DNA of 35,140 nucleotides, taken from positions 1 to 35,140 of the forward strand of contig JACQOR010000093.1 in assembly GCA_016202435.1 (NCBI GenBank), in the 5' to 3' direction. Below the pieces are notes generated by a model. That model saw only the letters and a list, made by a program, of their open reading frames with translations. It had not been told where the DNA came from and searched no databases. Both the position numbers and the translations under genes were made by a program. Shown piece after piece: positions 10,506-34,714 of this stretch (the first letter of the stretch is position 1; each line of letters begins with the position of its first letter). This DNA comes from Chloroflexota bacterium (lineage in GTDB: Bacteria; Chloroflexota; UBA6077; SHYK01).

Positions 10506-11882
10506 CTACTTGCCACCGGCATCTCTTTCCGCGGCTTCTGGTGCCGTCCCCCGAGTCTGTTCCTCGGCCAAACCGTTCAGTTGGCTGACCCGCACGCGCG
10601 CTACCCTGAGTCCGTCGATTTCTTCGATGGCGAGCCGATGGCCGGCCACCTCAACAGCGTCCCCAACCGACGGACGCCGACCTAGCCGCCCAAAAACGAA
10701 CCCGCCCAGCGTGTCATAGTCACTATCGCTCAACGTCATATGAAATTGCTCCTCGACATCGGAGAGCAACGCGAGTCCGTCGACAAGCGCGGAGCCATCG
10801 GCAAGCCACTGGACCTCGGGAGGCTCGGCCTCCGCCTCGTCCCTCAGTTCTCCGGCGATACGGTCGAGCAGGTCGCGCAGGCTCACGATGCCCGCAGTAG
10901 CGCCATACTCGTCCACGACGATGGCCAGATGAGTTCGCTGTTGCTTCAGTTCAGCAAGCACCCGGTATGCGGGCATCGTCTCGGGGATGAAGAGAGGCGG
11001 GCTCATATGCAGTCGTACGTCGAAGGTCGCGTTCTCGGATCTCGGGACGGATAGCATGGCGACTAGATGCTTGGCAGAAATGACTCCAATGATGTTGTCG
11101 GGATTGCTTTCGTAAACTGGATATCGGGAATGCTCGTGGCGGCCCATGAGCTCTCCGAGACGGCTGAGACTCACACCGGCGGGGACCGCGACCATCTCGG
11201 TGCGGGGAACCATCACCTGGCGGGCGTGCAGCCCCGAGAAGTCGAGCGCGCGCTCAGCCATGTTTTCGGTGTCGTCCGCTGAGCCGTTCCCACCTCGGCT
11301 GGAGCGAATGAGGGCTTTCAGATCCTCAACCGAATACGCCTGATGGTGCTCCGCTTCCCAGCGCAGCCCCATGAGCCTCAAAAGCACATCGATGAATCCA
11401 TAGAGCAGCGCGATGAACGGACGAAAAGCCAGACCGACGAGATTCGTAGGCCGGACCGTCAAGAGTGCGGTCTCTTCGCCGCGCTGGAGCGCAATCATCT
11501 TGGGCAATTGCTCACCCAGGCTGATGTGCAGGAAGGTAATGATCGCGAAAGCTACCGCGATTGCGAGCCCGTGGGCAGTCAAGCCAACCACCTCAAGGGG
11601 CAAGATCGCGGCCAGCGGTGCTTCGAGGAGGCTCGCGACGGCCTCCTCCCCAACCCACCCCAGCGCGAGGCTGGCCATCGTGATGCCGAGCTGACAAGCG
11701 GAGATGAAGCGGTTGGGATCTTCGAGTGCCTTCAGCACGGCGCGCGCGCTCCGATTGCCCTGGGCAGAGAGCGCTTCCAGCCGCGTCTTCCGGGCGGTTA
11801 CCAGTGCGAACTCAGCTGCGACGAAGAATCCGTTCGCCGCGAGAAGCGCGAAGACTATGAGCAGGCGTAAGGGGATGTCCAT
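10506..11882 (-). CDS. HlyC/CorC-family membrane protein (CNNM domain, CBS pair, CorC_HlyC domain)
   Basis: This 458-residue protein has an N-terminal CNNM/DUF21 transmembrane domain (about 1-190, with FFVAAEFALVTARKTRL and the LGEQLPKMIAL block). A CBS pair follows (about 215-335; VMVPRTEMVAVP, then HLAIVVDEYGATAGIVSLRDLLDRIAGEL), then a C-terminal CorC_HlyC domain (about 350-435; DYDTLGGFVFGRLGRRPSVGD). Members of this family are linked to magnesium or cobalt efflux and related ion homeostasis; the older hemolysin name is misleading. The ATG at 11882 is divergent to the tRNA gene, sharing a 33-base gap with the AT-rich stretch ATAATATA. No partner gene clarifies its substrate. Confidence 0.92.
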   Translation of the reverse strand: MDIPLRLLIVFALLAANGFFVAAEFALVTARKTRLEALSAQGNRSARAVLKALEDPNRFISACQLGITMASLALGWVGEEAVASLLEAPLAAILPLEVVGLTAHGLAIAVAFAIITFLHISLGEQLPKMIALQRGEETALLTVRPTNLVGLAFRPFIALLYGFIDVLLRLMGLRWEAEHHQAYSVEDLKALIRSSRGGNGSADDTENMAERALDFSGLHARQVMVPRTEMVAVPAGVSLSRLGELMGRHEHSRYPVYESNPDNIIGVISAKHLVAMLSVPRSENATFDVRLHMSPPLFIPETMPAYRVLAELKQQRTHLAIVVDEYGATAGIVSLRDLLDRIAGELRDEAEAEPPEVQWLADGSALVDGLALLSDVEEQFHMTLSDSDYDTLGGFVFGRLGRRPSVGDAVEVAGHRLAIEEIDGLRVARVRVSQLNGLAEEQTRGTAPEAAERDAGGK

Positions 11883-11915: not shown

Positions 11916-11987
11916 GGGCCCGTAGCTCAGCGGCAGAGCGGTCGCCTTATAAGCGACATGTGGAAGGTTCGACTCCCTCCGGGCCTA
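11916..11987 (+). tRNA. tRNA-Ile with anticodon UAU
   Basis: A 72-base cloverleaf is readable. The acceptor stem GGGCCCG pairs with CGGGCCT (first pair G-U) and the discriminator is A at 11987. The D arm is GCTC/GAGC. The anticodon stem GTCGC/GCGAC encloses the loop CTTATAA, so the anticodon is TAT at 11948-11950. The variable loop is 5 bases. The T arm GAAGG-TTCGACT-CCCTC has one A-C mismatch in mid-stem (11965 with 11977). CCA is not encoded (CCC follows). The anticodon UAU reads AUA, which most bacteria read with a lysidine-modified CAU tRNA instead. Confidence 0.9.
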
Positions 11988-12107: not shown

Positions 12108-13142
12108 GTGAACCTCACGATCTGGGACCAGACAGACGCTTTCGCACAACTGGAAGCGCCATGGAAGGCCCTCTTCGACGCCTGCCCCGATGCGCCCGTT
12201 TTCTTGAGCTGGGAATGGACTTCCACCTGGTGGGCGCACTTCCAGCTGGATCGACAGCCGCACATCGTAACCCTGGGCGAAGGCGATGAGATTCTCGGGA
12301 TTGCGCCGCTCATGGTCGATCTCAGCGGCACACCTACCGTCCGGTTCATCGGCAGTACAGAGACGACGGACTACGCAGACCTGCTGGCTACGCCGCAGCA
12401 TCAAGGTCAAGCGGCGGACGCACTGCTGGACTGTCTCCGGGAGGCCGGCGAAAAGGTGGCGGTGATGCTCGAGCCGATCCCCGAAGAAAGCGTCTTGCTT
12501 CAGAACGTCGGCGCTCCGGGGCGCGAGTTCGCCGAGGCCAGAAAGGTGGAGCCCTGTCCCGCGGTTGTCCTCCCGGACACTTGGGAGGGCTACCTATCGA
12601 GTCTGAGCAGAACCGACAGACATGAGCTGCGCCGGAAGATGCGTCGCGCCGAAAGCTCCGGCGAGCTGAACCTCCGGGTCTTCCTCGATCCGGGCGGGCT
12701 CAGCGTGGCATTACCTCGCTTCTACCAACTCCATCGCTCAAGTGGCGACGTGCGCAAAGCTCAGTTCCTCGAGCCCCGCATTCAAGCTTTCTTCTCCGAC
12801 GCGATAGGCGCGCTTGCGGCACGTGGGTGGGTCCGTTTGGCGATGTTGAGCCTGAACGATGTGGAGATCGCCTCGGTACTTTCCTTCGACCGCGGCTCCG
12901 CGGTGGCGCTCTACAACTCGGGCTACGATGTGCAGTTTCGGGCCATTAGCCCCGGGATCGTCGTGATCGCACTGGAGCTCAAGGGCGCCATTGAGCGAGG
13001 ACGGTCCACGTACGACTTCCTCCGCGGGGATGAGCCGTACAAGTACGATTTCGGAGCTCAGAACCGGTTCGTCTGGAGCCTCGAACTTGGCACCGGAAAG
13101 AGCGCAATGCCCCACCACGGCGGTGCGGAATCGCACGAATGA
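12108..13142 (+). CDS. GNAT/FemAB-like acyltransferase (BioF2/CelD type)
   Basis: This 344-residue protein belongs to the FemAB/BioF2-like double-GNAT group (GNAT_acetyltransf_6). The N-terminal half has FLSWEWTSTWWAHF and a GEGDEILGIAPL block. The C-terminal half has YLSSLSRTDRHELRRKMRRAE, then a GNAT-like core (LAMLSLNDVEIASVLSFDRG, then YNSGYDVQF, then ISPGIVVIALELKGAIERG) and YDFLRGDEPYKYDFG. These proteins are often encoded with polysaccharide or cell-envelope genes and may acylate sugars; the substrate is unknown. The GTG at 12108 has GGAG at 5-base spacing. A longer ORF from 12012 was rejected because its extra N-terminus is non-family sequence. Its ATGA overlap with the glycosyltransferase suggests a shared job. 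Confidence 0.82.
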   Translation: MNLTIWDQTDAFAQLEAPWKALFDACPDAPVFLSWEWTSTWWAHFQLDRQPHIVTLGEGDEILGIAPLMVDLSGTPTVRFIGSTETTDYADLLATPQHQGQAADALLDCLREAGEKVAVMLEPIPEESVLLQNVGAPGREFAEARKVEPCPAVVLPDTWEGYLSSLSRTDRHELRRKMRRAESSGELNLRVFLDPGGLSVALPRFYQLHRSSGDVRKAQFLEPRIQAFFSDAIGALAARGWVRLAMLSLNDVEIASVLSFDRGSAVALYNSGYDVQFRAISPGIVVIALELKGAIERGRSTYDFLRGDEPYKYDFGAQNRFVWSLELGTGKSAMPHHGGAESHE

Positions 13143-14428
13143 ACGACCACTTGCACCTGAGAATCGCAACTCTCAGCGTCCACGCGTGTCCCCTGGCGCC
13201 ACTTGGCTCCTGGGAGACCGGCGGCATGAACGTGTACATCCGAGAGGTGAGCCGGCATCTCAGCGACCTAGGCGTGCACGTCGATGTCTTCACTCGGCAG
13301 CAGGGAGAGCACGTTGATGCCGTCGTCCCCTTGGCCGAGCGGGCGCGGGTCATTCACGTGCCGGCCGGTCCAGGCCGCTATTTGCCGAAGGATCGTGTCG
13401 TCGCGCATCTGCCGGAATTCATCTGCAACATGCGGGACTTCATTCAGAGTGACAACGCCGGATACGACGTCATCCACAGCCACTACTGGCTTTCGGGGCG
13501 AATCGCCGGCTATTTCAAAAGTGTCTGGCGCATTCCGATGGTGGCCATGTTTCACACGCTCGCTGAACTGAAAAACCAGGTTTCTCCGAACGATGACGAA
13601 CGTGAGAGCACAGTGCGGGCCGGCATCGAAAGGATGACTGTCGCGGCGGCGGACCGGGTCATCGCCTCAACGACCGTGGACCGGGGCCATCTTGAAGACT
13701 ACTACGAGGCAGACCGGGAACGGATCACTATCCTTCCCTGCGGAGTGGACCTTGACCTTTTCCACCCTGGCGACACGGACGCAGCTCGAGGCTCCCTAGG
13801 ACTGAGCGAAGAACGCATGATTTTGTTCGTCGGCCGGATTCAACAGCTCAAGGGCATCGAGGTGCTCCTCCGCGCGGCGCGAGCCCTGGTAGATCGTGCC
13901 GAAATGCCACCGTTTCAGGTGATGATCGTGGGGGGACGACCAAGCGGAGAGCGCAACGATCCGGAGATTCGGGAGCTTCACCGCCTCCAACGGCTCGTCG
14001 GAGAGCTCGGCCTGAATGATCGGATCCGATGGGCCGGCGCCATCGATCAGCGCGAACTCCCCCGGTACTACCAGGCGGCAGACGTCACAGTCGTCCCGTC
14101 GACCTACGAGTCTTTCGGGCTGGTGGCTCTCGAATCGATGGCTTGCGGAACCCCGGTCGTGGCCTCCAAGGTTGGGGGATTACTGGCGACAGTTCAGAAT
14201 GGCGAGAACGGATTCCTGATTCCCAGCCGGAACCCCGACGACTACGCCTGCCGAATTGCCGAGCTTCTCGGCCCGACCAAGCTGCAACAGCAGTTCGGAA
14301 CGGTGGCGAGGGAGCGAGCCACGCACTTTGGCTGGCGCCGCGTGGCTACTCAGCTTCTCGACCTCTATCAGGACCTGAGGGCTGCGCGTGCTCACGGGCA
14401 GGCGCCTACGACTGTATGGCAGAAGTAG
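13139..14428 (+). CDS. glycosyltransferase family 4, MshA/sucrose-synthase-like
   Basis: This 429-residue GT-B glycosyltransferase has an N-terminal acceptor domain starting SVHACPLAPLGSWETGG followed by MNVYIREVSRHL, close to the GGMNVYV signature of MshA-like enzymes. The C-terminal domain has the sugar-nucleotide region FVGRIQQLKGIEVLLRAAR and the retaining GT4 EX7E motif within YESFGLVALESMACGTPVVAS. A strict MshA (N-acetylglucosamine plus inositol-1-phosphate) assignment is not justified; sucrose-phosphate synthase-like or other envelope glycosyl transfers are equally possible. Its ATG overlaps the GNAT-like stop (ATGA). The pair may build a modified glycoside. Confidence 0.88.
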   Translation: MNDHLHLRIATLSVHACPLAPLGSWETGGMNVYIREVSRHLSDLGVHVDVFTRQQGEHVDAVVPLAERARVIHVPAGPGRYLPKDRVVAHLPEFICNMRDFIQSDNAGYDVIHSHYWLSGRIAGYFKSVWRIPMVAMFHTLAELKNQVSPNDDERESTVRAGIERMTVAAADRVIASTTVDRGHLEDYYEADRERITILPCGVDLDLFHPGDTDAARGSLGLSEERMILFVGRIQQLKGIEVLLRAARALVDRAEMPPFQVMIVGGRPSGERNDPEIRELHRLQRLVGELGLNDRIRWAGAIDQRELPRYYQAADVTVVPSTYESFGLVALESMACGTPVVASKVGGLLATVQNGENGFLIPSRNPDDYACRIAELLGPTKLQQQFGTVARERATHFGWRRVATQLLDLYQDLRAARAHGQAPTTVWQK

Positions 14429-33194: not shown

Positions 33195-34076
33195 GTGGCC
33201 CAAACCCCGACCGGGGCGCCGTCATCCGTGGCAAGCTTGCTCGAGAGCGCAGAACGTCAAATCCGTGCGAGCGGAGCAGACGCATCGCGTCTGACCGCTA
33301 TCGTTCTGCTCGAGCGGGCGAGCGGTCTGGGCCGCGAGCGATTGATAGCGAGCCCTGAGCGCGAACTGCCGCCGGAAACAGTTTCAGCTTACGAATCGCT
33401 CGTCGCCCGCCGCTGCTGCCGCGAGCCACTGGCCTATATCCAGGGCTGGCGCGAGTTCTTCGGCCGGCGGTTCAAGGTCAGCCCGAGGACATTGATTCCA
33501 CGGCCGGAGTCCGAAGGACTGGTTGAGCTGGTGCTTGCCTGGTCGGCCCGTCGCGCAACCGAAGGCCGACGAATGCTTGACGTCGGCACCGGCAGCGGCG
33601 CAATTGCAGTTACCTTGCTCGCGGAAATTCCCGGGCTCAACGCTGTCGCCACGGACATTGATCCCGAGACGCTCCTGGTCGCCCGGGAGAACGCTCGGAG
33701 CCATGGCGTAGGCCCGCGTGTCCAGCTTGTCGCCTGCAACATCGCCACCGCCCTGCGGTCGTCGTTTGACCTCATCACGGCGAACCTGCCATACATTCCC
33801 ACCGCGCGGATCGACACACTGGAGCCCGAAGTCCGGCTGTACGAACCCCACCGGGCTCTGGATGGGGGAGCCACCGGAACCACCGAGCTTGTCGGGTTGC
33901 TCCGGACGCTGCCGGAGGTACTCGAGCCCGGCGGAGCCGCCTTCCTGGAGATTGGCGAGGAGCAGAGTCTGCACTTGCAAGCCTGCGCTCAGGGGACGAT
34001 GCCGAACTCAGCAGCCTCGGTGCACCTGGACGCGGCTGGCCTCGACCGCTACCTGATCGTGGAACGACCCGGTTGA
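33195..34076 (+). CDS. prmC: peptide chain release factor N5-glutamine methyltransferase
   Basis: PrmC methylates the GGQ glutamine of RF1/RF2. The N-terminal helical domain includes RREPLAYIQGWREFFG-like CREPLAYIQGWREFFGRRF, followed by LIPRPESEGLVELVL, the SAM loop LDVGTGSGAIAVTLL, and the catalytic motif, which here reads NLPY (197-200, in TANLPYIP) instead of the usual NPPY. It starts one base after prfA with GTG at 33195 (293 residues); GTG at 33228 is an alternative. An ORF from 33156 overlaps prfA and is not preferred. The overlap TTGA couples it to tsaC. Confidence 0.93.
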   Translation: MAQTPTGAPSSVASLLESAERQIRASGADASRLTAIVLLERASGLGRERLIASPERELPPETVSAYESLVARRCCREPLAYIQGWREFFGRRFKVSPRTLIPRPESEGLVELVLAWSARRATEGRRMLDVGTGSGAIAVTLLAEIPGLNAVATDIDPETLLVARENARSHGVGPRVQLVACNIATALRSSFDLITANLPYIPTARIDTLEPEVRLYEPHRALDGGATGTTELVGLLRTLPEVLEPGGAAFLEIGEEQSLHLQACAQGTMPNSAASVHLDAAGLDRYLIVERPG

Positions 34077-34714
34077 GTCCGGCAGAGCGGATGTGGTGGT
34101 GGCCCACTGACGTGCTCCGCAGCGGGGACGCGGTGCGCCACGCCGGAGAGCTCATCCGGGAAGGCAAGCTCGTAGTCTTTCCGACCGACACGGTCTACGG
34201 CCTGGGCACGAATCCCTTCAATCCCGACGCTATCGAGAGGCTCTTCAAGGCGAAAGGTCGTCCTCCGGAAAAGGCGATCGCGTGGCTCGTCAGCCACGTC
34301 GAGCACGCCAAACGGCACTGTCGGTTCGATGCGCTGGCCGAGCGGCTGGCCGAGCGCTACTGGCCCGGACCATTGACGCTCGTGCTGCCGCTGCTCAGAC
34401 CGGTTCCAGGTGGGCTCCCGTCGCAGGCGGTTCGGATCCCGAATCATGCCTGTGCTCTCGCTGTTATCCAGGCAGCAGGGGGAGCGGTCGCCACCACGAG
34501 TGCGAATCGATCGAGCTTTCCGGCGGCCAGGACGGCGCACGAAGCCGCCCGGGCGCTCGGCGATAGGGTTGATCTCATCATCGACGCTGGGACCGCTCCC
34601 GGCGGAGTCGATTCCACCGTGCTGGATCTGACGACATCACCTCCCACCGTCCTCAGGCCGGGTCCGCTCGACCCTGAAGACCTCGAGGAGACGATCGGCC
34701 TCAGGCTCGTCTAG
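34073..34714 (+). CDS. tsaC: L-threonylcarbamoyladenylate synthase (YrdC/Sua5 domain)
   Basis: TsaC makes threonylcarbamoyl-AMP from threonine, bicarbonate and ATP, the first step of the t6A modification at tRNA position 37 in ANN-decoding tRNAs. The YrdC domain shows GKLVVFPTDTVYGLGTNPF, the KRR-type lysine/arginine block KAKGRPPEKAIAWLV, YWPGPLTLVLP, and VATTSANRS. It is a single-domain protein of 213 residues without the Sua5 extension. The start is TTG at 34073 (TTGA overlap with prmC) or ATG at 34091. The AUA-reading tRNA in this window would be a natural client of the t6A pathway. Confidence 0.93.
   Translation: MSPAERMWWWPTDVLRSGDAVRHAGELIREGKLVVFPTDTVYGLGTNPFNPDAIERLFKAKGRPPEKAIAWLVSHVEHAKRHCRFDALAERLAERYWPGPLTLVLPLLRPVPGGLPSQAVRIPNHACALAVIQAAGGAVATTSANRSSFPAARTAHEAARALGDRVDLIIDAGTAPGGVDSTVLDLTTSPPTVLRPGPLDPEDLEETIGLRLV

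Follow-up and report, generated by a model that had tools for sequence, protein, structure and literature searches.

Structure and surroundings of the tRNA gene

The window analyzed, a stretch of 35,140 bases, corresponds to contig C76 of G000, a Chloroflexota draft genome of 1.76 Mb in 105 contigs and 76.7% complete. G000 is one of the five genomes (G000-G004) of the family here named f1. All genomes compared are drafts, G003 being the most complete family member (98%, 46 distinct tRNAs), and G004 (Baikal-deep-G117; 1.88 Mb, 88% complete, about 63% GC) being the one fully read. ARAGORN detects one tRNA in the window, whose position is given in Table 1 together with those of its internal features and of the genes relevant to its interpretation.

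Table 1. Position of the tRNA-Ile(UAU) gene, its internal features, and related genes within the window.
Feature	Position	Strand	Basis
tRNA-Ile gene, UAU anticodon	11916..11989	+	ARAGORN; Rfam RF00005; conserved in 5/5 family genomes
Anticodon TAT (U34 A35 U36), loop CTTATAA	11948..11950	+	ARAGORN, Rfam, sequence
T-arm, mismatch A51 (11965)/C63 (11977)	11963..11979	+	Sequence and family comparison
Acceptor stem 3' side and discriminator A73; G1-U72 wobble (11916/11986)	11980..11987	+	Sequence
CNNM/CorC-type gene	10506..11882	-	tblastn; Pfam PF01595, PF03471, PF00571
Family-4 glycosyltransferase gene, synteny anchor	13139..14428	+	tblastn; Pfam
TsaC/Sua5/YrdC-type gene, candidate t6A37 enzyme	34073..34714	+	Pfam PF01300, E 8.3e-54

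The initial annotation described this gene as a tRNA-Ile with a UAU anticodon in the loop CTTATAA, and both ARAGORN and the Rfam model RF00005 bear it out, the latter with an end-to-end match at 11916-11987 of 60.9 bits (gathering cut-off 29, E 5.5e-11). Since this value lies within the range of the other 23 tRNAs of G000 (45.2-72.6 bits in Rfam), the gene does not resemble a pseudo-tRNA; the low covariance-model score that the annotation had named as the sign of one was not obtained, and the score together with conservation in five genomes rules this possibility out. The CCA end is not encoded, the sequence continuing there as ACCC, and a consensus scan found neither a promoter on the plus strand nor a terminator for the gene.

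The A-C mismatch previously pointed out in the T-stem is real and private to G000; as the other four f1 copies carry A51-U63, it would be either a mutation restricted to this genome or an error of sequencing. U72 is common to all f1 UAU copies, the tRNA-Ile(CAU) of relatives from the same order having C72. The resulting G1-U72 pair recurs in UAU tRNAs of f1, G008, G022, G180, and Streptomyces specialis (L165), and its recurrence in different lineages perhaps reflects an anti-determinant role.

According to tblastn, the CNNM/CorC-type flank likewise adjoins the UAU tRNA in all four remaining f1 genomes. At the left edge of the window, an ORF at 139-564 resembles by eye an IS3-type transposase in its C-terminal part (integrase core), and an insertion element may thus mark the end of the contig.

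Use of AUA codons

AUA codons are still in use in these genomes. Taken together, the 1173 ORFs of 200 or more codons chosen mechanically in G004 contain 1189 of them (2.4 per 1000 codons, 5.0% of the isoleucine codons), with 677 of these ORFs having AUA at least once. In the window, 40 occur within 32 ORFs chosen mechanically, with sites in ftsZ (codons 118 and 306), prfA, hisS, and murB, where the codon 2 cited in the initial annotation was confirmed (25258, TTG ATA). Because of this continued use, tRNA-Ile(UAU) should be essential in f1.

Absence of TilS and tRNA-Ile(CAU)

Lysidine and its enzyme TilS are regarded as near-universal and essential in bacteria, a CAU anticodon being modified to read AUA. 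The domain PF01171 of the TilS-type ATPase was not found in any of the five f1 genomes, the best of them 98% complete, whereas it is present in 11/11 genomes of the order outside f1 and in 14/14 control genomes. The UAU tRNA occurs, in turn, in 5/5 f1 genomes versus 2/24 other genomes of the class. PF01171 was not found either in G019, G056, and G058, but the pattern search gave no UAU tRNA for them, and tilS is present in relatives of G019 and G058; these absences probably reflect assembly gaps.

No tRNA-Ile(CAU) was found among the 46 distinct tRNAs of G003, whose CAU anticodons belong to the initiator and elongator Met tRNAs only. The same applies to the tRNA set of G004, with one elongator Met as its only CAU tRNA and with two isoleucine tRNAs, Ile(UAU) and an Ile(GAU) that adjoins an Ala tRNA, and to G000-G002, where pattern search and ARAGORN retrieved only Met CAU tRNAs.

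When TilS proteins of 13 relatives were used as tblastn queries against G004, nothing significant was obtained. A divergent TilS was discarded, the weak matches (best E 0.003, C5:422880) being short and corresponding to no TilS-like ORF. In the class relatives G005, G011, G012, G015, and G026 ftsH comes after tilS, and the sequence ahead of tilS matches a DivIC-like gene, joined in G012 and G026 by a beta-propeller gene. In G004 these genes are still neighbors, divIC and ftsH lying about 0.1 kb apart, and tilS is gone from between them. With tilS and tRNA-Ile(CAU), whose joint presence the initial annotation had named as the sign of redundancy, not found and the UAU tRNA always present, the latter is in f1 a replacement and not a redundant copy, in agreement with the bypass of TilS and lysidine that the initial annotation had put forward.

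Genes for tRNA modification

The modification of U34 and A37, recommended for checking in that annotation, was evaluated at the level of genes only. Upon searching G004 with the E. coli queries, MnmG gave no match and MnmE was not found, the matches covering only the G domain; these MnmE candidates look like other GTPases and were rejected. MnmA is present. Since MnmE and MnmG were not found in G004 (88% complete), U34 is unlikely to bear a cmnm5/mnm5 group and would probably lack any cmnm5-type group. Regarding A37, a gene of the TsaC/Sua5 type, a candidate for making the t6A37 of ANN-decoding tRNAs, tRNA-Ile(UAU) included, lies in the window itself.

A further peculiarity concerns tRNA-Arg, whose anticodon is GCG instead of the usual ACG in G000, G003, and G004 (L008, L118, and L111), and also in G052 (L046). 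The match to TadA in G004 is RibD-like and no TadA was found there; this, together with the GCG anticodon, suggests that position 34 may likewise carry no inosine. The same tRNA-Arg GCG is reported for Thermotogae and Spirochaetes (PMC8007984).

Other lineages carrying a UAU tRNA

In a pattern search of 400 Chloroflexota genomes, 21 showed a UAU tRNA. Apart from f1, two families have made the switch to UAU: f49 (L205-L212), which lacks tilS in 12/12 genomes and shows the UAU tRNA in 8 of them, and f75 (L216-L217), whose two genomes both lack tilS and carry the UAU tRNA. UAU tRNAs without clear tilS were observed as well at loci L167, L168, L171, and L173, so that, with f49 and f75, such cases comprise Chloroflexota, Patescibacteria, and a Spirochaetia draft. 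Six single Chloroflexota genomes (G008, G022, G107, G180, G281, and G327) carry the UAU tRNA together with tilS, and genes resembling tRNA-Ile(CAU) appear in several of these.

Changes in isoleucyl-tRNA synthetase

The class uses type-2 IleRS, a form homologous to eukaryotic cytosolic IleRS and having its own C-terminal anticodon-binding part (PMC10485003). The f1 enzyme, encoded in G004 by the ORF at C5:418264-421440, shows the C-terminal domain PF19302 (Pfam); G000, a 76.7% complete draft, has no readable IleRS. Sequences were compared with 29 others from genomes with tilS, including the six with an extra UAU tRNA. The terminal Trp of the RRRFW motif is kept in 29/29 of the comparison sequences, and also in the Thermus and Priestia structures, but is replaced in f1 by Ser, Ser, Ser, and Ala. 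In addition, the C-terminal motif E-T-L is changed in f1 to E-V/I-G. Both sites are in tRNA-binding parts of the enzyme according to Pfam, the Trp in Anticodon_1 and E-T-L in the type-2 C-terminal domain. Human, yeast, and Candida IleRS have Lys at the Trp site (RRRLKGE in human and yeast, RRRIKG in Candida).

When 180 conserved columns were scanned without bias, only two appeared changed in all f1 and all f49 sequences, namely the Trp of RRRFW and the Leu of the C-terminal E-(T/A/V)-L motif. Chance predicts an overlap of 0.42, which the observed one exceeds only marginally (P about 0.056), so that the scan alone is suggestive, and not proof. On the maximum-likelihood tree the Trp site requires at least four changes, and its losses all fall in UAU lineages without clear tilS, f49 having Arg in 10/10 sequences that cover the site. 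All six genomes with UAU tRNA plus tilS keep the Trp. It is also kept in f75, with E-T-I as C-terminal motif; since this family has the UAU tRNA and no tilS, the Trp change is not strictly required for the switch.

Outside Chloroflexota, two Patescibacteria and the Spirochaetia draft, without PF01171 match, and a third Patescibacterium, with a match below the cut-off, have Gln or Gly at the Trp site or lack it, though these are small drafts compared without tilS-bearing controls from their own phyla. G401 (L166), with a UAU tRNA and no PF01171 match, was left out because the Trp site is not fully covered in its IleRS. Considered together, the changes in f1 IleRS would let the enzyme accept U34.

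The IleRS of G002, G003, and G004 (L199, L190, and L189) also shows the class I signature as GVHH instead of HxGH, a feature common to many relatives of the class. This non-canonical form of the motif has been linked to mupirocin hyper-resistance (PMC10485003).

Origin of the UAU gene and evaluation of alternatives

The glycosyltransferase gene near the f1 UAU tRNA also adjoins tRNA-Ile(CAU) in the order relatives G009 and G010 (tblastn), and f1 UAU tRNAs have acceptor stem and D-arm in common with the tRNA-Ile(CAU) of order relatives. Given this shared neighbor, the simplest reading, and a probable one, is a change of C34 to U34 in place, accompanied by that of C72 to U72. An incoming copy of an old UAU paralogue replacing the CAU gene would account for the many UAU copies with G1-U72 in separate lineages, against C72 in the local CAU tRNAs. 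Nonetheless, the f1 gene sits in the tRNA-Ile(CAU) slot and has the acceptor stem and D-arm in common with its local CAU counterparts, which makes such an arrival unlikely, even if gene conversion at that slot may have taken place. A very different possibility is that the UAU tRNA is redundant, as in Lactobacillus plantarum, and that TilS and tRNA-Ile(CAU) were overlooked in draft genomes; the six Chloroflexota genomes with UAU tRNA plus tilS, several with tRNA-Ile(CAU)-like genes, indicate that such a state may exist in the phylum. For f1 it is strongly disfavoured and, in our estimation, very improbable, considering that (i) tilS is found in 0/5 family genomes but in all 11 same-order relatives, (ii) the 98% complete G003 provides a large tRNA set with no Ile(CAU), and (iii) G004 shows a closed gap at the place of tilS.

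The IleRS changes might also reflect lineage drift or another role, unrelated to accepting U34. The Trp kept by f75, the marginal overlap in the column scan, and the Patescibacteria and Spirochaetia without controls of their own phyla leave some room for this explanation. It is nevertheless unlikely, considering the invariance of the Trp in the comparison set, even where an extra UAU tRNA is present, its repeated loss confined to UAU lineages without clear tilS, its lack in the human, yeast, and Candida enzymes, and the location of both sites in tRNA-binding parts. Thus, as a whole, the best explanation, and one that we regard as highly probable, is that tRNA-Ile(UAU) is the sole AUA-reading isoleucine tRNA of f1, having arisen by C34 to U34 in place, with loss of TilS and a shift of type-2 IleRS to accept U34.

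Proposed course of the replacement

In the ancestor of f1, the tRNA-Ile2 gene, with a CAU anticodon modified to lysidine by TilS, would have mutated in place from C34 to U34. The resulting tRNA would read AUA by ordinary pairing and would no longer be mistaken for tRNA-Met. TilS, left without substrate, would then have been lost, leaving the closed gap seen in one member, and the type-2, eukaryote-like IleRS would have altered its anticodon-reading surface to accept U34. We infer the order of these events, the compensatory character of the IleRS changes, a U34 without cmnm5-type group, and the absence of isoleucine misreading at AUG.

Tentatively, and with somewhat less than even confidence, we propose that type-2 IleRS selects the wobble base through the Trp ending RRRFW, aided by E-T-L, and that loss of this Trp could be a recurrent bacterial step from lysidine-modified CAU to plain UAU, one that converges on the eukaryotic state and differs from the Mycoplasma route. 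The Chloroflexota U34, without MnmE/MnmG modification, would then read AUA and not AUG by further means.

Relation to known systems

Mycoplasma mobile IleRS, a type-1 enzyme, is reportedly changed to Arg at the site of E. coli Trp905, a residue that in the E. coli enzyme lies within a CPRCW motif. On the contrary, f1 has a type-2 IleRS whose changed Trp ends the RRRFW helix of Anticodon_1, and the M. mobile-type change at a C-terminal Trp905 site was not found in it. M. mobile is also a reduced parasite, whereas f1 organisms are free-living and have larger genomes, with about 63% GC in G004. U34 is unmodified in M. mobile, and may be so in f1. Decoding of AUA by tRNA-Ile(UAU) without TilS is known in M. 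mobile and hemoplasmas (Taniguchi et al. 2013, according to PMC4014445), and M. mobile and f1 are alike in having UAU in the DNA, no tilS, and a change in IleRS, reported as compensatory for M. mobile.

According to the relevant part of a tRNAscan-SE survey, tRNA-Ile3(UAU) replaces tRNA-Ile2(CAU) in 17 genomes, including Bifidobacterium, Mycoplasma, and Neorickettsia (PMC8450103); the same tRNA replacement is found in f1, Chloroflexota not being named in that part of the survey. Lactobacillus plantarum keeps redundant tRNA-Ile(CAU) and tRNA-Ile(UAU) (Tomikawa 2018 and Uesugi 2022, as cited in PMC9976931), a state that, as portrayed there, the six Chloroflexota genomes with UAU tRNA plus tilS resemble, whereas f1 shares the bacterial tRNA-Ile(UAU) and has lost both the CAU tRNA and TilS. 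The likeness extends to the eukaryotic cytosol, where AUA also has a UAU anticodon and the homologous IleRS lacks the Trp. The anticodon of eukaryotic tRNA-Ile(UAU) carries pseudouridines.

The canonical system of tilS and tRNA-Ile(CAU) was thus not found in f1, and the features of TilS-independent AUA decoding (intact UAU tRNA, no tilS, no tRNA-Ile(CAU), AUA in use) were all found. By every genomic criterion tested, f1 belongs with the known TilS-less UAU bacteria. Replacement of lysidine by UAU is already known in kind; its occurrence in these Chloroflexota lineages, the route by change in place, and the signature in type-2 IleRS seem to be new.

These observations point to free-living bacterial families without lysidine and TilS, three of them in one phylum. 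In f1, the states before and after the replacement can be seen side by side, with the tRNA in its old slot, a closed tilS gap, and a changed synthetase. The repeated loss of one Trp from type-2 IleRS suggests a switch of specificity that lends itself to testing and, with MnmE and MnmG absent, the way in which U34 avoids AUG can be tested directly.
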